A stretch of DNA of 42,503 nucleotides from Deltaproteobacteria bacterium (GTDB lineage Bacteria > Desulfobacterota_D > UBA1144 > Nemesobacterales > CSP1-2). Below the pieces are notes generated by a model. The model searched no databases. It saw nothing but the letters and a program-made list of their open reading frames with translations, and had not been told where the DNA came from. This document shows, one piece after another, positions 17,390 to 41,255 of this stretch (position 1 is the stretch's first letter; every line of letters starts with the position of its first letter). The stretch lies in NCBI GenBank assembly GCA_016187835.1, contig JACPIY010000025.1:1-42503 (forward strand), in the 5' to 3' direction. Position numbers and translations under genes: made by a program.

Positions 17390-19231
17390 GTGCAAAAGAT
17401 AGAGAAATTAGATAAGGTTACGGTAAAGTTTGCCGGTGATTCCGGGGATGGAGTACAGATTATGGGTGATCAGTTTGGAAATGTTACCGCCGTTGTGGGT
17501 AATGATTTTGCTACCTTACCCGACTATCCAGCAGAAATCAGGGCACCACAAGGAACTACATATGGTGTTTCGTCCTATCAAATTCAATTTGCCGCTTACG
17601 ATGTATATACTCCGGGTGATAATCCGGATGTCCTTGTTGCCTTTAATCCCGCAGCATTAAAAGTGAACTTATCCTCACTAAAACCCGGAGGAATAATAGT
17701 AGTAAATGAAGATGAATTCACCGAGCAAAATCTAAGAAAAGCGGGATTCCCCTCAAACCCGCTTGAGGATGATTCATTAACCTCATACCGGGTTAATAAA
17801 ATTCCTATCACAAAACTCACACTCGAAGCGCTCAAAGACACGGCAATAGGACACAGAGAGAAACTGAGATGCAAGAATTTTCTTGCATTAGGCATTATAT
17901 CCTGGTTGTTCTTAAGGCCTCTTGATCCGGTCATAAGCTTTCTCAACAAGCGGTTTTCCTCCAAGCCTGAGGTTCTTGAGGCAAACCTGAGGGTGCTTAA
18001 AGCCGGGTATAACATATGCGATACAATGGAAATATTCCCTGTACATTACCAAATTCCTCCCGCAAGACTAGAACCCGGAAGGTATAGAAATATAAATGGG
18101 GCGCTAGCGACTGCTTACGGACTCATAGTCGCTTCACATAAATCGGGCGTACCTCTCATATATTCGGGGTACCCGATAACCCCTGCAAGCGAGGTCCTGC
18201 AAATCCTTTCAGCGTTAAAACATCATGGAGTGATAGCTATACAAACGGAAGATGAGATAGCTGCTATTACCATGGCAATTGGGGCGTCTTATGCAGGCTC
18301 CATTGGTGTTACCGGAACAAGTGGTCCAGGACTTGCCCTCAAAATCGAGTCTCTAAATCTTGCAGTCATGACTGAACTTCCGCTTTTAGTGTTTGATTAC
18401 CAGAGGTCGGGAATATCAACAGGAATGCCCACAAAGACTGAACAGGGGGACCTGCTATTTGCACTTTTTGGAAGGCCGTCTGATTCCCATATCGTAATAC
18501 TCGCTCCATCCTCACCCTCAGACTGCTTCTGGATTTCAATTGAAGCGGTAAGACTTGCTACAAAGTACATGATTCCTGTCCTAATTCTCTCCGAGCAATT
18601 TCTAGTTCATTCATCTGAGCCTTGGAAACTTCCCGAGCTAGGTGAGATACCGCCGATAGAAATAAACTTTAGGACCGACCCCAGCAGATTCTATCCATAT
18701 ATGCGAGATGACAAAACGCTTGCAAGGTCTTGGGTAAAACTCGGAACCCCAGGGCTTGAGCATAGAATAGGGGGGCTCGAAAAGAGCAATATTTTCGGAA
18801 ATGTGTCATATGACCCAGAAAACCACGACCTTATGACCAAGATAAGGTCTGAAAAAGTTCAAAGAGTAGCCCAGGACATACCCGATGTGAAAATCATGGG
18901 TCCTGCTGATGCAGATATGCTAGTTGTTGGATGGGGAAGCACGTATGGACATATGAAGGCGGCAGTGGAAATGGCAAATAGTGATGGAATGAAGGTAGCA
19001 TTGGTGCATCTTAGATACCTCAATCCTCTTCCAAAGAATTTAGGTGATGTGCTAAGGAAATTCAAGAAAGTTCTAGTTCCCGAATTAAATCTTGGGCAAC
19101 TCCAATACGTTTTGCGTGCTAAATACCTAGTAGATGCTATTGGATATAACAGGGTTACGGGCAAACCATTTAGCGTTTCTGAACTTTTAGATTTTATCAA
19201 AGAGGAGTATAAAGGCTTGAAAATGCACTGA
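17390..19231 (+). CDS. korA: 2-oxoacid:ferredoxin oxidoreductase, fused gamma-alpha subunit (2-oxoglutarate type)
   Basis: Oxidatively decarboxylates a 2-oxoacid (most likely 2-oxoglutarate) to the CoA thioester, reducing ferredoxin; the reverse reaction fixes CO2. The 613 residues contain an N-terminal gamma domain (FAGDSGDGVQIMGDQFG to about 195) and then the alpha domain with GYPITPASEVLQIL near 260, the EDEIAAITMAIGASYAG loop, TGTSGPGLALK and the PTKTEQGDLL segment. This fused layout with a 340-residue partner is that of two-subunit KorAB enzymes, as in actinobacteria and Hydrogenobacter. The start is GTG at 17390 without a strong ribosome site. The beta gene follows after 29 bases. The substrate is inferred from family resemblance. 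Confidence 0.92.
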   Translation: MQKIEKLDKVTVKFAGDSGDGVQIMGDQFGNVTAVVGNDFATLPDYPAEIRAPQGTTYGVSSYQIQFAAYDVYTPGDNPDVLVAFNPAALKVNLSSLKPGGIIVVNEDEFTEQNLRKAGFPSNPLEDDSLTSYRVNKIPITKLTLEALKDTAIGHREKLRCKNFLALGIISWLFLRPLDPVISFLNKRFSSKPEVLEANLRVLKAGYNICDTMEIFPVHYQIPPARLEPGRYRNINGALATAYGLIVASHKSGVPLIYSGYPITPASEVLQILSALKHHGVIAIQTEDEIAAITMAIGASYAGSIGVTGTSGPGLALKIESLNLAVMTELPLLVFDYQRSGISTGMPTKTEQGDLLFALFGRPSDSHIVILAPSSPSDCFWISIEAVRLATKYMIPVLILSEQFLVHSSEPWKLPELGEIPPIEINFRTDPSRFYPYMRDDKTLARSWVKLGTPGLEHRIGGLEKSNIFGNVSYDPENHDLMTKIRSEKVQRVAQDIPDVKIMGPADADMLVVGWGSTYGHMKAAVEMANSDGMKVALVHLRYLNPLPKNLGDVLRKFKKVLVPELNLGQLQYVLRAKYLVDAIGYNRVTGKPFSVSELLDFIKEEYKGLKMH

Positions 19232-19260
19232 AGCGAAGCCAAAAAGGTGGATTAAAGAAA

Positions 19261-20283
19261 ATGAGTACTCCGGTAGATGAAGTAGAGCTGATAAAATACA
19301 AACCCACGGATTTTAAGTCCGACCAGGATGTAAGATGGTGTCCAGGATGCGAGGACTACGCCATACTTAAAGCCTTTCAAACGGCTCTTGCTGAGATTGG
19401 TATTCCAAGAGAAAAACACGCAGTAATATCGGGTATAGGTTGCGCTGCGCGTCTTCCTTATTATATGACCACGTACGGATTTCACACCATACATGGAAGA
19501 CCGATTCCAGTGGCAACAGGAGTGAAGGTAGCAAATCCCGATCTGTCAGTTTGGGTCATGACCGGAGATGGGGATGCGATATCTATAGGCGGCAACCACC
19601 TGATACATGTTATGAGAAGAAATGTTGATATAAACATCTTGTTATTTGATAACCGGGTGTATGGTCTCACAAAGGGACAGTATTCACCCACAAGTAATAA
19701 GGGCACCATAAATAAATCCGCTCCAATGGGAACGGTTGAGGAACCAGCGGAACCATTAGCACTTGCTCTTGCATCCGGGGCCACTTTTGTAGCAAGAACC
19801 TCTGCTGCTTATGTAAAACATCTCGTCGAGCTTATTATAGAAGCGCATAAACACAAAGGGACCTCTTTTATACACATATATCAGAATTGCTATGTTTATA
19901 ACGATGGGGTATTTGATGAGTTTACGGAAAAAGATGTGAGGGATGATAGAAACTTAATTCTTGAGCATGGTAAGCCTCTTGTGTTTGGCAAAAACAGTGA
20001 CAAAGGTTTAAGGTTTAGTGATGGCAAAATTGAGATAGTAGAATTAGAACCCGGGAATCCGCCTGATGATATTACGGTTTATGATGAGACAAACCTTTCA
20101 CTTGGGTTTGCCCTTTCGAAACTCTACTGGCCTGAATACCCTGTACCCATGGGGATATTTAGAAGGGTTTCTCAGCCGAGCTTTGAAGATTTGATTTATG
20201 AACAGGTTAAGAAGGCAAAAGAGAAGTTTTCACCGGATATTAACAGGCTACTGTATTCTGGTGACGTATGGGAAGTTAAGTAG
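19261..20283 (+). CDS. korB: 2-oxoacid:ferredoxin oxidoreductase beta subunit (2-oxoglutarate type)
   Basis: The thiamine-diphosphate and [4Fe-4S]-binding subunit of the KorAB enzyme. It shows RWCPGCEDY (C27, C30), SGIGCAARLPYYM (C61) and the TPP motif GDGDAISIGGNH from 102. Conserved HTIHGRPIPVATGVK and YGLTKGQYSPTS segments also fit. The later Cys in YQNCYVYN probably completes the cluster. The 340 residues match the two-subunit type, and the gene is translationally linked to the gamma-alpha gene upstream. No ferredoxin (delta) gene accompanies the pair, unlike the kor operon at 35.7-38.5 kb. Confidence 0.93.
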   Translation: MSTPVDEVELIKYKPTDFKSDQDVRWCPGCEDYAILKAFQTALAEIGIPREKHAVISGIGCAARLPYYMTTYGFHTIHGRPIPVATGVKVANPDLSVWVMTGDGDAISIGGNHLIHVMRRNVDINILLFDNRVYGLTKGQYSPTSNKGTINKSAPMGTVEEPAEPLALALASGATFVARTSAAYVKHLVELIIEAHKHKGTSFIHIYQNCYVYNDGVFDEFTEKDVRDDRNLILEHGKPLVFGKNSDKGLRFSDGKIEIVELEPGNPPDDITVYDETNLSLGFALSKLYWPEYPVPMGIFRRVSQPSFEDLIYEQVKKAKEKFSPDINRLLYSGDVWEVK

Positions 20284-23957: not shown

Positions 23958-24410
23958 AATCTATTAAGTCCACTTTAAAGTAATACTGATTTCTGAGCTA
24001 GAAAACGAATCTAAAGAAACCGAGGCGGCCTAAGAGCTATAGGCTACCTATCTTGCTCTTGACCAATCTAGAAAGTAGTGTTATTTAAACACTTATATAT
24101 AAATTTAGAACTCCACATAAATACGCTTTTCTGAAACCTCGTCCCATGTAGGCGAACTATGGGAAAAAAATCGAGGATTTAGCTTAAAAGTGTCGGGTGT
24201 CAGAAAATATGACAGAGATTTTATAGTCGCACCTCTTATTTTACAAGGGAATTCAGTAATTATCGTCTGGCATGAATTTTGCTCGATAATAAAGAGGAAT
24301 TTGCCTGTCCTTGCAATGGAGCGATTTTTATTTGTCTTTTCGAATGTGTATGTTAACTTTAGGCAGAGTCGAATAATTATGAATTTCTTCACAAGCCAGG
24401 GAGGTTATAA
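23958..24410. other. Leader region of the nuo operon
   Basis: A 450-base non-coding stretch between the divergent radical SAM and nuoA genes. The only long frame (24190-24426, plus) overlaps nuoA's start and looks random. It contains the -24/-12 element at 24267-24283. No obvious riboswitch or terminator was seen. Confidence 0.5.
24267..24283 (+). promoter_or_regulatory. Putative sigma-54 promoter of the nuo operon
   Basis: CTGGCATGAATTTTGCT matches the sigma-54 consensus TGGCACG-N4-TTGCW, with GG (24269-24270) and GC (24281-24282) separated by exactly ten bases. Transcription would start near 24294, leaving a leader of about 117 bases before nuoA. A similar element precedes korDABC. Confidence 0.5.
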
Positions 24411-24776
24411 GTGGTTTCATATATAAATCTACTCCTTTTTTTCTGTATCGTACTTTTATTTGCTGTCGGAACCCTTATCTTAGCTAAATTAATTAGATAC
24501 CAAGATCCGAACTTCGACCCTATTAAGATCCAGCCCTATGAATGTGGAGAAGATCCAGTTGGCGATGCCTGGATTCGCTTTTCCATTTCTTTCTACCTGA
24601 TTGCTCTCATTTTTGTCCTGTTTGATGTGGAGGTGGCTTTTCTCTTTCCCTGGATTCTTTCTCTCTCAAAACTCGGTCTTTTGGCTTTTATAGAGATGCT
24701 TATTTTCCTCTCCATACTTTTTCTAGGATGGCTCTACGCTTTTAAAAAAGGAGATTTGAGATGGGAACGTCAGTAG
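24411..24776 (+). CDS. nuoA: Complex I subunit A
   Basis: A small three-helix membrane subunit that helps shape the quinone channel. The 121 residues include the conserved loop [12 protein letters not shown] and the second helix [21 protein letters not shown], both diagnostic for NuoA/Ndh-C. The GTG start has an ideal GGGAGG seven bases upstream. It opens the operon, and its end overlaps nuoBC by 16 bases, implying translational coupling. Confidence 0.96.
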
Positions 24777-34258: not shown

Positions 34259-35548
34259 TTAGTCTCTTTCTTGAATCGGTATATAGTCACGCTTATCGGG
34301 TCCTAAGTATAGCTGTCTTGGACGGGCTATTTTTGTCTCTTTATCTAAGAGCATTTCCTTCCATTGTGCCAGCCAGCCCGAGGTTCTAGGAATAGCAAAA
34401 AGCACCGGGAATATGTCAACTGGAAAACCTAGGCTCTGGTAAATTAAACCCGTATAGAAGTCCACGTTGGGATACAGTCTGCGCTTGATAAAGTATTCAT
34501 CCTCAAGTGCAATCCTTTCTACCTCCAGTGCAATTTCGAGCAAGGGATTCAAACCGGTAACTTCAAACACCTTATCAGCAGTCTCCTTAACGATTTTTGC
34601 CCTCGGGTCATAGGATTTATAAATACGGTGCCCAAATCCCATGAGTCTGCCTTCACCAGATTTTACCCTTTTAATAAACTCAGGAACCTTATCCTTGGAA
34701 CCAATTTCCATTAGCATTCGAAGTGCTGCCTCATTTGCCCCACCGTGTAAGGGGCCATAGAGTGCTGCGATACCAGCGGCAACAGCAGAGTAGGGGTCCA
34801 CATGAGAACTCCCTACCGCACGCACTGCGTTGGCACTACAATTCTGTTCGTGGTCGGCATGCAGTATAAAAAGTATATCCAGAGCCCTTTCTATAACGGG
34901 ATTAGGTTTATATTTTGGCTCTGTCATCTTAAACATCATATTTAAGAAATTCCCGGTATAACTCAGGTCATTATCTGGATATGCATAAGGCAAACCCCGA
35001 CCGTGTCGGTACGCAAATGCTGCAAGTGTTGGCATCTTTGCAATCAGGCGATGAATCTGCTTTTCTCGTACCTTCTCATCAAAAATATTTTTAGCCTCTG
35101 GATAAAAGGTAGACAGTGCGCCAACTGTACTTATAAGCATGCCCATCGAATGAGCATCATGACGAAATCCATCCATGAATTTTTTAATATTCTCATGAAT
35201 AATCGTATGATGCGTTATGTCATAAACCCATTCCTTATATTGGGATTTAGAAGGTAATTCTCCATACAAAAGTAAGTAAGCAACTTCTAGATAATCCCCT
35301 TTTTCCGCCAACTGCTCAATCGGGTATCCTCTATAACGCAGTATACCTTTATCACCATCAATGAAAGTTATTCTACTCTTGCAAGAGGCGGTGTTTTCCG
35401 AGGCTGGGTCGTAACTCATGAGCCCAAAATCATCTTCTGACACCTTGATTTGACGTAGGTCCGTCGCCCTAATCGTCCCATGGGTTACGGGAATCTCATA
35501 ACTTTGCCCTGTACGTTTGTCAGTAATAGTTAAGGCTTCTTTACCCAT
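34259..35548 (-). CDS. gltA: Citrate synthase
   Basis: Condenses acetyl-CoA and oxaloacetate to citrate (reversible in some anaerobes). The 429 residues match the Gram-negative hexameric type. The catalytic triad is H268 (GPLHGGANEA), H307 (MGFGHRIYKSYDPRA) and D363 (YPNVDFYTGL), and H233 sits in ILHADHEQNCS. The N-terminal extension found in NADH-regulated enzymes is present. A strong GGAGG precedes the ATG. It lies 120 bases downstream of korC on the same strand, so it could be read from the kor promoter, linking the two TCA steps. Confidence 0.97.
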   Translation of the reverse strand: MGKEALTITDKRTGQSYEIPVTHGTIRATDLRQIKVSEDDFGLMSYDPASENTASCKSRITFIDGDKGILRYRGYPIEQLAEKGDYLEVAYLLLYGELPSKSQYKEWVYDITHHTIIHENIKKFMDGFRHDAHSMGMLISTVGALSTFYPEAKNIFDEKVREKQIHRLIAKMPTLAAFAYRHGRGLPYAYPDNDLSYTGNFLNMMFKMTEPKYKPNPVIERALDILFILHADHEQNCSANAVRAVGSSHVDPYSAVAAGIAALYGPLHGGANEAALRMLMEIGSKDKVPEFIKRVKSGEGRLMGFGHRIYKSYDPRAKIVKETADKVFEVTGLNPLLEIALEVERIALEDEYFIKRRLYPNVDFYTGLIYQSLGFPVDIFPVLFAIPRTSGWLAQWKEMLLDKETKIARPRQLYLGPDKRDYIPIQERD

Positions 35549-35668: not shown

Positions 35669-36247
35669 TCAATATGAAATGCATTCTAGATTAGGGTCTA
35701 CAGTGAGATGAGCTTCTTTTGCCAAGTTAATTCCTGCCTCAAGGGCCCTAAAGTTTAATTCTTCTGTTCCTTTGGGGATTCTTGTAAAAAGGGCTTTTTT
35801 TATAGCGTCTATCGAAACCAATTCTATAAGACCGGCTATCAGTCCTAAGGCAACAATATTAGCTACAATTACCTTTCCCACCTGGGTTCTGGCAGTGGCT
35901 ATTACAGGAAGTTTATATATCTTATATTTACCCGCTGGTATATCTTTTACCGTTTCCTCATCCACTATCAATATCCCTCCATCCTTAATATCGCCTGCAT
36001 ATTTATTAACAGATTCTTGGGTAAGGGCTAGGAGAACGTCAACCTTCGTCGCTTTAGGATAATCTATATCCTGATTGCTGATTATTACTATTGAGCTGCT
36101 AGATCCACCTCTGGACTCGGGTCCGTATGATTGGGTCTGAACGGCGTTTTTTCCATCGTAAAGAGCCGCCGCCTCGGCTAGAATCATACCGGCAAGGATA
36201 AGCCCCTGTCCACCGGAACCACTAAGCTTTACCTCGTATCTTTCCAT
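35669..36247 (-). CDS. korC: 2-oxoglutarate:ferredoxin oxidoreductase gamma subunit
   Basis: The gamma subunit closes the CoA-binding site of the four-subunit enzyme. The 192 residues start YEVKLSGSGGQGLILAGMIL, the nucleotide-type glycine loop of the family, and contain QTQSYGPESRGGSSSSIVI. The RBS GAGGG precedes the ATG. Only two bases separate it from korB, so the two are clearly translated together. Confidence 0.95.
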   Translation of the reverse strand: MERYEVKLSGSGGQGLILAGMILAEAAALYDGKNAVQTQSYGPESRGGSSSSIVIISNQDIDYPKATKVDVLLALTQESVNKYAGDIKDGGILIVDEETVKDIPAGKYKIYKLPVIATARTQVGKVIVANIVALGLIAGLIELVSIDAIKKALFTRIPKGTEELNFRALEAGINLAKEAHLTVDPNLECISY

Positions 36248-36249
36248 CT

Positions 36250-37092
36250 TTATTCCCTCTCCATGCTTACTTTATCAACCGATTTCTCAAAACTCTCGGT
36301 AAGGGTATAATAAAGCTGAGTATACTCCGGTACTTCCCTCCGATGAAGTATACCGGTGGTGAATTTCCCTTCGAGCTCTTCGGGTTTCATGCTCTGAGCC
36401 CTCTCCATACGAATGGCATTCTTTCTCTGCCAATCTAATAGAGAAAAGGCTGACTTAAATCCGTTCTTTCTACCATAGTAGATAGGACATCCCACCATTA
36501 CTTCAACCACTGAAAACCCCTTGTGTTTGAATGCCTCTATTACGACTTTATCAAGAGCAAAAATATTGTACGTGGTTTCCCTTGCTACAAACGTGGCTCC
36601 CGCTCCGATTGCGAGCTTTGAGAGGTCAAACTGAGGATCTATATTCCTATGAGGAGTTGTAGTTGAATAGGAACCGCTGGGAGTTGTAGGGGAATGCTGT
36701 CCACCCGTCATTCCATAGATATAGTTATTAAAAATTATGAGTGTAATATCGATGTTTCTACGGCAGGCATGTATAAAGTGATTCCCGCCAATTGCTGCAC
36801 AGTCCCCATCGCCTGAGACCACTATGACGTTGAGCTTAGGGTTAGCGAGCTTAATCCCGGTAGCGAATGTCAAAGGTCTGCCATGAGTTGTATGGAGTGT
36901 GTTAAAATCCAGGTAGCCCGAAATCCTGCCTGAACAACCTATCCCCGAAATAATTACCGTCTCTTCCTTCTTATAGCCCAGTGCGTCAATAGCCCTTATT
37001 AGAGATTTCATTGCTATCCCGTTGCCACAACCGGGGCACCAAATATGGGGCATTTTATCGTTTCTCAAATATTTAGAGTAATCAAAAGCCAT
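36250..37092 (-). CDS. korB: 2-oxoglutarate:ferredoxin oxidoreductase beta subunit
   Basis: The TPP- and [4Fe-4S]-binding subunit. The 280 residues carry IWCPGCGNG (C19, C22), SGIGCSGR (C53), the TPP motif SGDGDCAAIGGNHFIHACRR and YGMTGGQHSPTTP, all typical of four-subunit 2-oxoacid:ferredoxin enzymes. A late Cys in MVGCPIYYGRKN probably completes the cluster. The start has AGGAG upstream. It is shorter than the 340-residue beta subunit at 19261, showing the two are separate lineages, not a recent duplication. Confidence 0.95.
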   Translation of the reverse strand: MAFDYSKYLRNDKMPHIWCPGCGNGIAMKSLIRAIDALGYKKEETVIISGIGCSGRISGYLDFNTLHTTHGRPLTFATGIKLANPKLNVIVVSGDGDCAAIGGNHFIHACRRNIDITLIIFNNYIYGMTGGQHSPTTPSGSYSTTTPHRNIDPQFDLSKLAIGAGATFVARETTYNIFALDKVVIEAFKHKGFSVVEVMVGCPIYYGRKNGFKSAFSLLDWQRKNAIRMERAQSMKPEELEGKFTTGILHRREVPEYTQLYYTLTESFEKSVDKVSMERE

Positions 37093-37109: not shown

Positions 37110-38228
37110 CTATAATTTCACCAATATCTCATCGGGTGAGATTAGCTCTGTATCCACCCGATTTATCGGTATCACATCTGCTTTCCCACCTATCACCCTC
37201 TCTACCTCTAGGACTATCTGCCCAAGGTTCATCTCGGGAATGATTACCTTTCTGGCATGCTCCGCTAAACGCTTTAGTGGTTTTACGGGAAATGGCCAGA
37301 TCGTGATGAGTTTTAAAAGGCCTACTTTCTTTCCTGCATTTCTCGCACACTTGACTGCAAACTTTGCTGACCTTGCAACGGACCCATATGCAACAACTGC
37401 AGTTTCTGCATCTTCGAGCATGAACTCCTCCCAACGCAGGATCTCGTCTTCTCCCTTTTCAACTTTCTTTGTAAGTCTTTGGATAAGCTCTCCTATCCTT
37501 TTAGGGTCGTTGGTGGGAAATCCACTCCAGTCATGACTGAGACCGGTTATGTGAAACCTATACCCGGTGCCAAAGTTTGCTATATTTGGAACACCCCCTA
37601 GGTCTGGTTTATATGGAAGATAATCATCATAAGCTTCATTAGGCCTTCTCCTGTTTATGATCTCAATTTCGCCAGGTTTAGGTATTCGAATCTTCTCCCT
37701 CATATGTCCAACGACCTCATCAATTAGAAGTATTACCGGGTTTCTATACTTTTCAGATATGTTAAAAGCTCTTACAGCTTCATAGAAGCACTCCTCAACA
37801 GTTGAGGGTGCAATCGCAACCGCTGGATGGTCTCCATGAGTTCCCCAGCGGGCTTGCATCACATCACCCTGGGCTGGACCGGTAGGAGTGCCGGTACTTG
37901 GCCCTCCACGCATAACATCGACTATGACGCAAGGAACCTCAGTTATACAGGCAAACCCTATGTGCTCCTGTTTCAAGGAAAACCCTGGACCGCTTGTTGC
38001 TGTCATAGCTTTGGCTCCGGCAAGAGAAGCACCGATTACAGCGCCCATAGATGCAATTTCATCCTCCATCTCGATGAAAACACCTTTGCGACGAGGAAGT
38101 TCATAGGCCATATACTCGGCGATCTCACTTGAGGGACTTATAGGGTAGCCCGCAAAGAAATTACATCCTGCATAGAGGGCTCCCTCTGCAAATGCCTCAT
38201 TCCCTTGAAGAAACTTTTCTTTCTCCAT
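37110..38228 (-). CDS. korA: 2-oxoglutarate:ferredoxin oxidoreductase alpha subunit
   Basis: The catalytic pyrimidine-domain partner of beta. About 372 residues from the ATG at 38226-38228; a TTG eight codons upstream is also in frame but lacks a site. Motifs are FAGYPISPSSEIAEYMAYEL, MEDEIASMGAVIGASLAGAK, TATSGPGFSLKQEHIGFA and GGPSTGTPTGPAQGDVMQARWG, the signature of the KorA/VorA type. The C-terminal domain has KLITIWPFP and VIIPEMNLGQI. It sits between the ferredoxin gene and korB in a tight operon. Confidence 0.95.
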   Translation of the reverse strand: MEKEKFLQGNEAFAEGALYAGCNFFAGYPISPSSEIAEYMAYELPRRKGVFIEMEDEIASMGAVIGASLAGAKAMTATSGPGFSLKQEHIGFACITEVPCVIVDVMRGGPSTGTPTGPAQGDVMQARWGTHGDHPAVAIAPSTVEECFYEAVRAFNISEKYRNPVILLIDEVVGHMREKIRIPKPGEIEIINRRRPNEAYDDYLPYKPDLGGVPNIANFGTGYRFHITGLSHDWSGFPTNDPKRIGELIQRLTKKVEKGEDEILRWEEFMLEDAETAVVAYGSVARSAKFAVKCARNAGKKVGLLKLITIWPFPVKPLKRLAEHARKVIIPEMNLGQIVLEVERVIGGKADVIPINRVDTELISPDEILVKL

Positions 38229-38255
38229 GTCTTCTTTTCTCTCTTTTATCAAATT

Positions 38256-38522
38256 CTATTCAATAGCTATAGCGAAATCAGGGCACTCGAGTTCACAGAG
38301 CATACATTTGCTGCAGAGATTTATATCCTTTACAATCGGATAGGAACCCTTCATCTCCAGGCATTTATTTGGACATATCTCAATACATATTTCACAACCT
38401 TTACAGAATCCCTGATTTAAAGCAATGTTAACGAGTTTTCCTCTAGCTTTTTGGCTAATTCCACTCCACATATTAATTTTTCCTCTTTTCTCTATTAGTA
38501 CACCTATTTCCATTTCATTCAT
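38256..38522 (-). CDS. korD: 2-oxoglutarate:ferredoxin oxidoreductase delta (ferredoxin) subunit
   Basis: A two-[4Fe-4S] ferredoxin domain that takes electrons from the beta-subunit cluster. Ligands are C40, C43, C46, C50 (CKGCEICIEICP) and C70, C73, C76, C80 (CSKCMLCELECP). The first ATG (38520-38522) has AAGGAGG at a longish 11-base spacing. An internal ATG at codon 18 has GAGG at nine bases and would give a 71-residue protein starting MWSGISQKARGKLV. It is the first gene of korDABC and is preceded by a strong sigma-54-like element. Confidence 0.93.
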   Translation of the reverse strand: MNEMEIGVLIEKRGKINMWSGISQKARGKLVNIALNQGFCKGCEICIEICPNKCLEMKGSYPIVKDINLCSKCMLCELECPDFAIAIE

Positions 38523-39056
38523 TCGTATAAGTTCCTCCTTAGCTCTTAATTCCCTCTCTACCTGTCTAGAGCAACATTTGTGCCAAGGATTTTTTAACGG
38601 TTTTAGCGGGTTTTAAATTTTGGAAGAATTAAAAAAATCAAAGCCTTCGGGCAGTTAAAAGGGATAATGTTTCTAAGCATAAACTGCATGGCCTAATGCC
38701 TCAAAAAAAAATAACTGAATAGAATGTCAGATGTCAGAAAATCATACGTATTTAAGATGCTTCATCAATTAATAGACTTATCCCTTTCTCTACCAACCTT
38801 CTGCTAAAGCATTTTTCGCCTTAAAAGTGTAGGCGAACATGGTTACTGCTCTTATTGCTTACACATTAGCTCAAGAAACCCTGTCTTAGGATCAATTTCA
38901 ATGTCATATGTCTTAGATTCTGACGGATATATTTTCGACTGAGGAGTACCCCCTTAAACAATTCTAAGGTATTTCGGCACTTATGTGTATTGAATTTAGC
39001 GGCATATAGTATGCCAATAATCCATTACTGGCATAGAAAATGGAAGGAGCAAGCGA
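38523..39056. other. Intergenic region between divergent korD and nifJ stub
   Basis: About 530 bases without a recognisable gene. It holds the sigma-54-like element for korDABC at 38570-38586 and a small dyad GGCATA-TAG-TATGCC at 39001-39015. Nothing else was recognised. Confidence 0.5.
38570..38586 (-). promoter_or_regulatory. Putative sigma-54 promoter of korDABC
   Basis: The minus strand reads TTGGCACAAATGTTGCT, matching the sigma-54 consensus TGGCACG-N4-TTGCW at every strongly conserved position, with GG and GC exactly ten bases apart. The predicted start site near 38560 leaves a leader of about 38 bases to the korD ATG. This is the best -24/-12 match I found in the window. Confidence 0.65.
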
Positions 39057-39248
39057 ATGAAGAATGGAAGCTTTGCAACTATAGACGGTAATGAAGCAGT
39101 AGCTTCTGTTGCATACAGGCTGAATGAAGTTATCGCCATATACCCTATCACACCGGCATCTCCTATGGGTGAGTGGGCTGACTCGTGGGCATCCGGAAGA
39201 AGGCCAAACATCTGGGGTACCGTTCCATTAGTGGTAGAAATGAGGTAA
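39057..39248 (+). pseudogene. nifJ: Pyruvate:ferredoxin (flavodoxin) oxidoreductase, 5' stub
   Basis: The 63 codons read SFATIDGNEAVASVAYRLNE and then VIAIYPITPASPMGEWADSW with NIWGTVPLVVEM. This is the unmistakable start of NifJ/PFOR, a protein of nearly 1200 residues. It stops at R-TAA where homologues continue EMQSEGGAAG. A GGAAGGAG site precedes the ATG, so the 5' end is intact while over 1100 codons are gone. Confidence 0.85.
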
Positions 39249-39389
39249 TCTTAAGAAGAGAAAGATTAGTAAGTTCTTTTTGTTCTAATACATCTTTAAT
39301 TTTGTCCAATTGTCTGACATCAGACAGGTTTGTCATCCGCACCCGTTTCGTAATTCCCCCAAAGTATTATAAAAACATTAGATTTTATT

Positions 39390-39406
39390 TTGGCATGAGA
39401 TTTGCC
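39390..39406 (+). promoter_or_regulatory. Putative sigma-54 promoter of the small membrane protein gene
   Basis: TTGGCATGAGATTTGCC has the -24 GG and -12 GC exactly ten bases apart and nine further consensus bases. Transcription would start near 39416, about 30 bases before the ATG at 39448, an ideal promoter position. Confidence 0.5.
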
Positions 39407-39447
39407 CTTAAAAATATAGGGAGAATAGTAAAAAGGGGGTGAATAAG

Positions 39448-39810
39448 ATGATATTGGGAAGAATATTTAGTGTTCTCTTAGGTTTTTTCTTTATGCTTCT
39501 TTTTATTATGATTTTTTTTGTTCCCTATGCTATAGTAGGAATAGCTATTGCTTTCTTAATGGTGATATCAGCAGTTGTTCTCTTCGGAGTAGAGGCTACC
39601 ACTATTTATAAGAAATTGGTATCGAAAGCGTTTTACTGTCCATTTAGGAAGACAAATGTAGAGGTAAAACTCCGACCCAGCATCTTCACGTATAGACCGT
39701 ACGACGATGTTATTACTTGTTCTGCATTTAAAGGCAAAGTCACCTGCAAGAAGAACTGCTTAGATCTTCCGGAGCTTCGAACCTTAAAGGGAGTAGGTTT
39801 AGGAGGCTAA
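39448..39810 (+). CDS. Small membrane protein with Cys-containing cytoplasmic tail
   Basis: A 120-residue protein I do not recognise by name. Two hydrophobic helices (about 4-24 and 28-48 of the ATG product) are followed by a soluble tail with YCPFRKTNVEVKL, YDDVITCSAF and VTCKKNCLDLPELR. The four cysteines (C-P near residue 65, then C, C and C) could bind a metal or form a redox centre. Similar tails occur in small hypothetical proteins of sulfate reducers and Nitrospira-like bacteria, but I recall no function. The ATG at 39448 is chosen over the GTG at 39439 because GGGGGTG lies at the right distance. It has its own promoter-like element and terminator, so it is probably expressed. Confidence 0.75.
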   Translation: MILGRIFSVLLGFFFMLLFIMIFFVPYAIVGIAIAFLMVISAVVLFGVEATTIYKKLVSKAFYCPFRKTNVEVKLRPSIFTYRPYDDVITCSAFKGKVTCKKNCLDLPELRTLKGVGLGG

Positions 39811-40064: not shown

Positions 40065-41255
40065 TTATCGAAATTCTCTATATTGTTCTTCTGCTCTTTT
40101 CCTTTGTGTTTCAGTTAATCTTTTTAGAAGCCTCATAGAGTGCTCAAATTCGGATACGGGCTTAACTTGAAGGTACCCCTTTTCTATTGTGCGTTTTAAA
40201 ATCTCCTCTCCTCTTACAGACCTTATAATAAGCATTGTCCAACCAGCCGTCCCCAAGCCACCCGCCGAAATATCGGCATGCTCTGCACTAAAATCACCGC
40301 AGTAGTTACACTGAGCTCTTTTATATGCCTTGGCTTCGGCAAGGGGAGCTTCAATCCTTGCTCCATCCTTTAGGTCTATAATCAACTTGCCCTTCACGTT
40401 TACCTTAACCACATCCTGAGGATTTATTCCAAGTTTTCCTTGAAGATATTCATAAACAAATCTTTCAAAAACAAACGTCTCCGAACAGAAAAGCCCTAAT
40501 GTTACCTGTACGGCCTCTACATATTGCTTGAGATGTCTATTCTGCTTTTCTATATTTTTTTCTCCTCTATCAGCAGTGGTAAAATTCGTATCTGCACCTA
40601 AGGTCGTTGCATATCCCGATATCTCGCATGGAACCCCAACTAAAGCAAGTTTCTTTAGCTTATGCTTGTCTACAGCTTCCTTAAGAGCCATTGGTGTTGC
40701 GCAGTACGTATACCAAGATTTTGCAGTCTGTATAAGCTCATCTGCGCTTTTTACAACTCTTGGCACAGGATCAAGCCACATCTTATCAGAAGGTCCGGCC
40801 ACAGCCGCACCCTCGATTATCCCTTCATTAAAAGCACATCTAAGAATCTCAGTTACTGCTCCGCCGTCTTGTGCGTTTGTAACCACATTGGAATTGGTGC
40901 TCCTTACAACACACATAAACCTCATGACGCCGTATGGTTCATCTTCGCGTCTGCTCCTTCCAAAAACCCGAACGTCTATTTCTTCGGGTTTAATTGGCTT
41001 CATACACTCTGAGCCTAATCTACCACATGCATTTGCACAGACATCACATCCAACCTCTTCACTTATTGGGCAGTAGGCAAATCCCCCTTTCGGTTTTGCT
41101 ACATAGGGAGACATTGATACGGGATCGTATTTTATAACCCCGTATGGGCACGTTACAACGCACATTGAACACCCACAGCATCTTCTAGTAGATACAACTT
41201 CATTCACCATTCTCTCAAATGTTTTTTTGAACTGACCTTGCTCTGCTTCCTTCAT
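40065..41255 (-). CDS. FrhB/FdhB-family flavin iron-sulfur oxidoreductase (F420 dehydrogenase beta-like)
   Basis: The 396 residues belong to the coenzyme F420 hydrogenase/dehydrogenase beta family, whose members bind FAD and [4Fe-4S] clusters and pass electrons between soluble carriers and larger complexes. An N-terminal ferredoxin motif C26-x2-C29-x2-C32-x3-C36 (CCGCSMCVVTCP) is followed by further cysteines C62, C70, C73 and C77. QDGGAVTEILRCAFNEG, VGVPCEISGY, LGLFCSETFVFERF and QCNYCGDFSAEHADISAGGLG are the FrhB body. F420 use is not implied, since non-F420 bacteria also carry the family. An AAGGAGAG site precedes the ATG. It may work with the kor enzymes or the NuoEFG-less complex I as an electron-input module. 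Confidence 0.88.
   Translation of the reverse strand: MKEAEQGQFKKTFERMVNEVVSTRRCCGCSMCVVTCPYGVIKYDPVSMSPYVAKPKGGFAYCPISEEVGCDVCANACGRLGSECMKPIKPEEIDVRVFGRSRREDEPYGVMRFMCVVRSTNSNVVTNAQDGGAVTEILRCAFNEGIIEGAAVAGPSDKMWLDPVPRVVKSADELIQTAKSWYTYCATPMALKEAVDKHKLKKLALVGVPCEISGYATTLGADTNFTTADRGEKNIEKQNRHLKQYVEAVQVTLGLFCSETFVFERFVYEYLQGKLGINPQDVVKVNVKGKLIIDLKDGARIEAPLAEAKAYKRAQCNYCGDFSAEHADISAGGLGTAGWTMLIIRSVRGEEILKRTIEKGYLQVKPVSEFEHSMRLLKRLTETQRKRAEEQYREFR

Follow-up and report, generated by a model that had tools for sequence, protein, structure and literature searches.

The kor promoter and its operon

As judged from sequence, the kor-citrate synthase operon is preceded by a genuine sigma-54 promoter that belongs to a larger promoter set. 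The explanation advanced here, to which we give a probability of about 0.7, is that an NtrC-type activator of the kind encoded on contig C29 of the same genome (G000) acts at this promoter, within a regulon of about 17 promoters that responds to oxygen or redox state. The promoter, TTGGCACAAATGTTGCT, occupies 38570..38586 on the minus strand of the window (the whole stretch of 42,503 nucleotides analysed) and is an exact match to the -24/-12 pattern, its GG (38584-38583) and GC (38572-38571) standing ten bases apart. It lies 48 nt ahead of the korD ATG at 38522, for which AAGGAGG serves as ribosome-binding site, and the transcript is predicted to start at about 38559, some 37 nt before the ATG. 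A near-consensus sigma-54 promoter at 38586-38570 with a leader of about 38 bases had been proposed in a preliminary description, and both points hold.

Across the 2.86 Mb genome, the strict pattern TGGCACRNNNNTTGCW gave 15 matches against 0 for a reversed control and the looser TGGCAY-N5-TTGC gave 80 against 4, which bears out the earlier view that so good a match is unlikely to arise by chance. The kor site is one of the 7 among these 80 that share the top score under a simple weighting devised for this analysis, answering the suggestion that its genome-wide rank be checked. The genes that sigma-54 control would call for, which the same description had advised looking for, were found as well: rpoN is encoded at G000:C32:7891-8361 (E 8e-56), and the genome has 12 strong Sigma54_activat domains. 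What the present analysis adds is an enhancer sequence common to many of these promoters, two further sigma-54/enhancer units in the window and a regulon. No RNA element was found in the window with Rfam.

The genes of the operon, all on the minus strand, begin with korD (38256..38522), encoding a ferredoxin-like delta subunit (4Fe-4S; Pfam Fer4) whose best NCBIfam match, OGOR_delta, is under its cut-off. It is followed by korA (37110..38252; 2-oxoacid:acceptor oxidoreductase alpha subunit; POR_N and PFOR_II, with NF006412 above cut-off), korB (36250..37092; beta subunit; TPP_enzyme_C and NF007207) and korC (35669..36247; gamma subunit; POR domain, with NF006323 below cut-off), and all four subunits of KOR, alpha, beta, gamma and delta, are present. 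The substrate is likely 2-oxoglutarate, with specificity left unsettled by the family models: KorA passes the general 2-oxoacid model, and KorB scored 359.5 bits against a cut-off of 364 for NF007207 (2-oxoglutarate ferredoxin oxidoreductase beta), 4.5 bits short. Citrate synthase (34259..35548; Citrate_synt, with NF004126 and TIGR01798 above cut-off) comes directly after korC on the same strand and is presumed from gene order to be co-transcribed with kor; open reading frames were called mechanically throughout, and operons were assumed from gene order. The window also encodes a second 2-oxoacid:acceptor oxidoreductase of another type, with a fused gamma-alpha subunit and a beta subunit (17390-20283, plus strand).

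A shared upstream sequence and the predicted regulon

An enhancer-like upstream activating sequence (UAS), TTTCTGACATCTGACA, is located at 38725..38740 on the minus strand, 154 nt upstream of the kor promoter as counted from 5' end to 5' end. It consists of tandem TCTGACA heptamers and reads also as an imperfect palindrome. An 8-mer count made with no prior assumption about the motif, over the 140 nt upstream of the 80 sigma-54 sites, returned the UAS core ATCTGACA as the top enriched word, present in 19 regions versus 0.4-0.8 expected. The loose UAS motif by itself says little, since the genome-wide number of copies differing from TNTCNGAYRTCNGANA at no more than one position, 38, equals that of the reversed control. 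Of the 38 copies, however, 17 are followed within 300 nt by a sigma-54 site (0.3 expected; binomial P ~4e-26), as are all seven copies free of mismatches. Such P values overstate the enrichment, the motif having been spotted first in this window; the unbiased 8-mer count recovers it independently.

The tandem TCTGACA repeat, to which the kor UAS conforms, is the commonest form; other promoters carry a second and longer one, TGTCAGA-N10/11-TCTGACA. The longer form, found on contigs C94, C87, C20 and C17 (C17:20361), frequently has an inner TAAGACA or TCTTACA, and it may mark a second, paralogous activator. Two or more sites are customary for NtrC-type regulators, and most promoters here have a single UAS. 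Helical phasing of the UAS-promoter distances (57-60, 68, 76-82, 89-91 and 97-98) was striking by eye and was discarded at P 0.23. Upstream of other sigma-54 sites in the genome a second motif, approximately GACAAAATTTGTC or ACAAATTTTGT, is enriched (C13:24138, C24:2236, C92:1642, C11:77977, C48:22756 and C104:7359); it is a probable target of another enhancer-binding protein.

Two other units of the same design are present in the window, both on the plus strand. Ahead of the nuo (complex I) operon starting at 24411, a sigma-54-like site, CTGGCATGAATTTTGCT, lies at 24267..24283, with the UAS TGTCGGGTGTCAGAAA (24191..24206) 76 nt upstream of it. The idea that nuo is a conserved member was dropped, as the orthologous nuoA genes of G001, G003, G004 and G006 showed no convincing UAS or sigma-54 site in the 900 nt upstream (~320 nt in G004, up to the end of the contig); control of nuo may be peculiar to this genome, which has a second nuoA on C28. 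The third sigma-54-like site, TTGGCATGAGATTTGCC (39390..39406), has the perfectly palindromic UAS TGTCTGACATCAGACA (39311..39326) 79 nt upstream. Its presumed product is a small open reading frame (39439..39810, plus strand) with a hydrophobic N-terminus and a Cys-containing C-terminus, for which neither Pfam nor NCBIfam gave a family match; a weak homolog in G003 (L305:1897-2037) is near another sigma-54/UAS unit.

Two neighbouring genes may be recorded here. A 5' fragment of a NifJ-type pyruvate:ferredoxin oxidoreductase gene (39057-39248, plus strand) runs for 63 codons to a stop, and its much longer homolog in G003 (L305:3-1325, minus strand) is behind a sigma-54 site and UAS of its own. 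An FrhB/FdhB-type coenzyme F420 hydrogenase/dehydrogenase beta-subunit protein is encoded at 40065-41255 on the minus strand.

Taken over the genome, the predicted regulon has about 17 sigma-54 promoters, or perhaps as many as 27, that share a putative activator-binding sequence and serve low-oxygen respiration, stress proteins and central metabolism. Its targets in G000 include kor with citrate synthase, nuo, FeoB, a heavy-metal-type P-ATPase followed by the cbb3 oxidase (CcoN-CcoO), a cytochrome c assembly operon, and a TetR regulator with cytochrome c. Others are Hsp20 genes with UspA neighbours, CBS proteins, an AMP-binding-type acyl-CoA synthetase, radical-SAM proteins, a kinase-NtrC pair, and a phosphoribosyltransferase with, behind it, a RaiA/HPF-like ribosome-hibernation protein identified from a reading of its sequence. 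Similar target sets are known from low-oxygen and dormancy regulons.

The elements ahead of kor recur, wholly or in part, in the relatives nearest by KorA, which is 87% identical in G001, 80% in G005 and 79% in G002 (apparently the same as bacterium HR37, hence G002/HR37). In G001, TTTCTGACATCTGACA stands 151 nt before TTGGCACAAATGTTGCC; in G005, the UAS reads TTCCTGACATATGACA and the promoter TTGGTACGAATTTTGCA; in G002/HR37, the UAS is perfect and the promoter, read directly from the sequence, is CTGGCACATAAGTTGAA. Enhancer and promoter are therefore kept in two other genera, and a third has an intact enhancer with GA in place of the -12 GC. The GG/GC pair, whose conservation in relatives the preliminary description had singled out, is thus retained in G001 and G005 and altered in G002/HR37. 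The upstream regions of G000 and G001 are 68% identical overall, and the longest stretches without change are 22 nt around the UAS and 16 nt of promoter core. At more distant kor loci (L132-L141), neither a sigma-54 site nor a UAS was found ahead of kor.

The candidate activator, its kinase and alternative readings

The activator at the UAS is likely an NtrC-type response regulator encoded at G000:C29:21784-23148, a candidate put forward from conserved linkage and co-occurrence. It has a receiver, an AAA+ domain whose loop reads GSFTGA instead of GAFTGA, and a Fis-type HTH, and its gene lies with those for a cytoplasmic multi-PAS histidine kinase and a GNAT acetyltransferase. In Desulfovibrio, GSFTGA is among the loop variants listed as functional (PMC4641369). 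The acetyltransferase-kinase-regulator operon stands behind a UAS, usually with a sigma-54 site, in G003, G006, G017, G021, G025, G029 and G033 (no acetyltransferase was called in the G025 operon), and CBS, Hsp20 or UspA genes are often beside it in relatives, several behind an enhancer of their own. Upstream of its own operon in G000 there is just a degenerate UAS.

By a stricter enhancer pattern, the 20 of the 41 genomes with a C29-type regulator average 3.9 UAS copies versus 0.8 in the others (Mann-Whitney P 6e-6), a comparison in which both UAS abundance and regulator presence are confounded with phylogeny. Sigma-54 itself does not explain the difference, as it is encoded in 38 of the 41 genomes. 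One exception is G004, a fragmented assembly with 9 UAS copies and no orthologous regulator among the matches listed (<1e-120). In the genomes with a conserved kor UAS and promoter, the C29-type regulator is 79-88% identical.

The domains of the linked kinase are PAS, HisKA and HATPase only. The best solved matches of its PAS domain are mostly the heme PAS sensors DosP and FixL (E 4e-17 to 5e-14), and a His together with Gly-x-Gly-Arg is found at the aligned ligand region in 11 of the 11 kinases complete there; PAS domains with no known heme cofactor have these residues as well. The similarity to DosP and FixL, together with the regulon content, suggests a heme-binding kinase that senses oxygen.

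From the promoter, the UAS, their association and their conservation, each supported by sequence statistics, we infer the later steps of a circuit. Falling oxygen or redox state, the presumed signal, would lead to phosphorylation of the C29-type regulator, which would then bind TTTCTGACATCTGACA about 150-170 bp upstream of the kor promoter; DNA looping by the bound regulator would allow sigma-54 polymerase to open the promoter, and KOR would be expressed when oxygen is low. Such timing would make sense because KOR enzymes are commonly oxygen-sensitive. In its fullest form the proposal is that the heme-PAS kinase and the NtrC-type regulator make up an oxygen-responsive, all-or-none sigma-54 switch, with an enhancer sequence of its own, over high-affinity respiration, dormancy-type stress proteins, TCA entry and the 2-oxoglutarate step, which we put forward tentatively and at somewhat less than even odds.

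Four other readings were weighed, two of which concern the promoter itself. That the kor site is a chance match is very improbable. With one mismatch allowed, the window has no significant excess of the pattern (2 found, 0.84 expected), and the argument draws instead on the exactness of the match, its position, the genome-wide statistics and conservation; the exact-match excess over the reversed control, the fitting position and strand, and the UAS speak against chance, and conservation in two other genera brings that reading close to exclusion. An ordinary sigma-70 promoter driving kor, with the -24/-12 match decorative or a minor start, would agree with the housekeeping promoters usual for core metabolic genes and with the loss of the -12 GC in G002/HR37. 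A search of the kor upstream region returned nothing convincing for sigma-70, however, its 3 weak matches being at chance level (2.1 in shuffles), and it is the sigma-54 promoter and UAS that form the longest unchanged blocks between G000 and G001; we consider the sigma-70 reading improbable.

The remaining two accept promoter and UAS as real and differ over what acts on them. The activator could be another enhancer-binding protein, such as the C17 NtrC-type regulator, or two paralogous activators could share the sites. The C17 kinase-regulator pair (C17, L070) comes immediately after a perfect UAS and one of the top-scoring sigma-54 sites, the genome has 12 strong enhancer-binding-protein domains, and the two UAS shapes may belong to two activators. 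Against this, the best matches of the C17 regulator in relatives reach only 51% identity, versus 79-88% for the C29 type, and it was set aside as the conserved activator for want of a close ortholog there; the C29-type operon is linked to the UAS in several genera, and on this comparison with C17 a different activator appears unlikely. The regulon could also be real and its signal not oxygen: another redox, energy or starvation cue would place KOR in a general stress or dormancy response, which the Hsp20, UspA, CBS and ribosome-hibernation targets would fit, and the heme-PAS assignment comes from similarity. The targets also include the P-ATPase with cbb3 oxidase, cytochrome c assembly and cytochrome c, however, and the best PAS matches are mostly oxygen sensors, which leaves a non-oxygen cue as a doubtful though serious possibility. 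Regulation of the kor promoter by the C29-type regulator in response to oxygen or redox state is the reading retained below.

Comparison with known systems and implications

The closest characterised system is NmpRSTU of Myxococcus xanthus, in which an NtrC-type regulator working with sigma-54 is autoregulated and linked to hypoxia (PMC11841059, as far as consulted). Membership is not claimed here, as the binding sequence and the sensor differ. According to the same portion of that source, a CBS protein, a universal stress protein and a P-type ATPase with cbb3 oxidase are targets in common with the G000 regulon, whereas NmpR binds GCGCA-N5-TGCGC in pairs, in contrast to the mostly single TTTCTGACATCTGACA here, and the sensor is the protoglobin kinase NmpU in a multi-kinase relay with the hybrid kinase NmpS, in contrast to a multi-PAS kinase adjoining the regulator (PMC11841059). 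The NmpR targets that the consulted part of PMC11841059 names do not include KOR, citrate synthase, nuo, Hsp20 or FeoB.

FixL-FixJ of rhizobia resembles the present system in having a PAS-type kinase of similar sequence and in controlling cbb3 oxidase and a copper ATPase; FixJ belongs to a different type of response regulator, which lacks the sigma-54 activator domain, unlike the NtrC-type regulator here. The target list of the DosR dormancy regulon of Mycobacterium tuberculosis, with its Hsp20-type chaperone, universal stress proteins and CBS proteins, is similar to that of the G000 regulon, and DosR is a NarL/FixJ-type regulator that works without sigma-54.

Among sigma-54 regulons, that of RpoN in Geobacter sulfurreducens reaches central metabolism (fumarase, acetyl-CoA transferases and dcuB), and the part of PMC2725144 consulted describes no common oxygen-type enhancer with its activator and does not mention KOR. 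The sigma-54 regulome of Desulfovibrio vulgaris has many enhancer-binding proteins, whose enhancer motifs are separate and mostly lie close to the promoter, among them three motif groups of TGT and ACA half sites (PMC4641369). In the text of that source, as consulted, neither a universal stress term nor the strings TGTC and GTCAG occur. A phrase search of the literature found no paper joining sigma-54, KOR and promoter.

With these findings an uncultured lineage gains a concrete and testable circuit, made up of an enhancer, a promoter set and a single candidate two-component system. Sigma-54 is best known for nitrogen and motility functions, and the circuit would extend its control to KOR and citrate synthase alongside low-oxygen respiration. 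It suggests that NmpR-like NtrC-type oxygen regulons arose or spread more widely, with differing sensors and binding sequences. If the oxygen-responsive switch is true, core carbon flow in this organism would be under strict all-or-none enhancer control.
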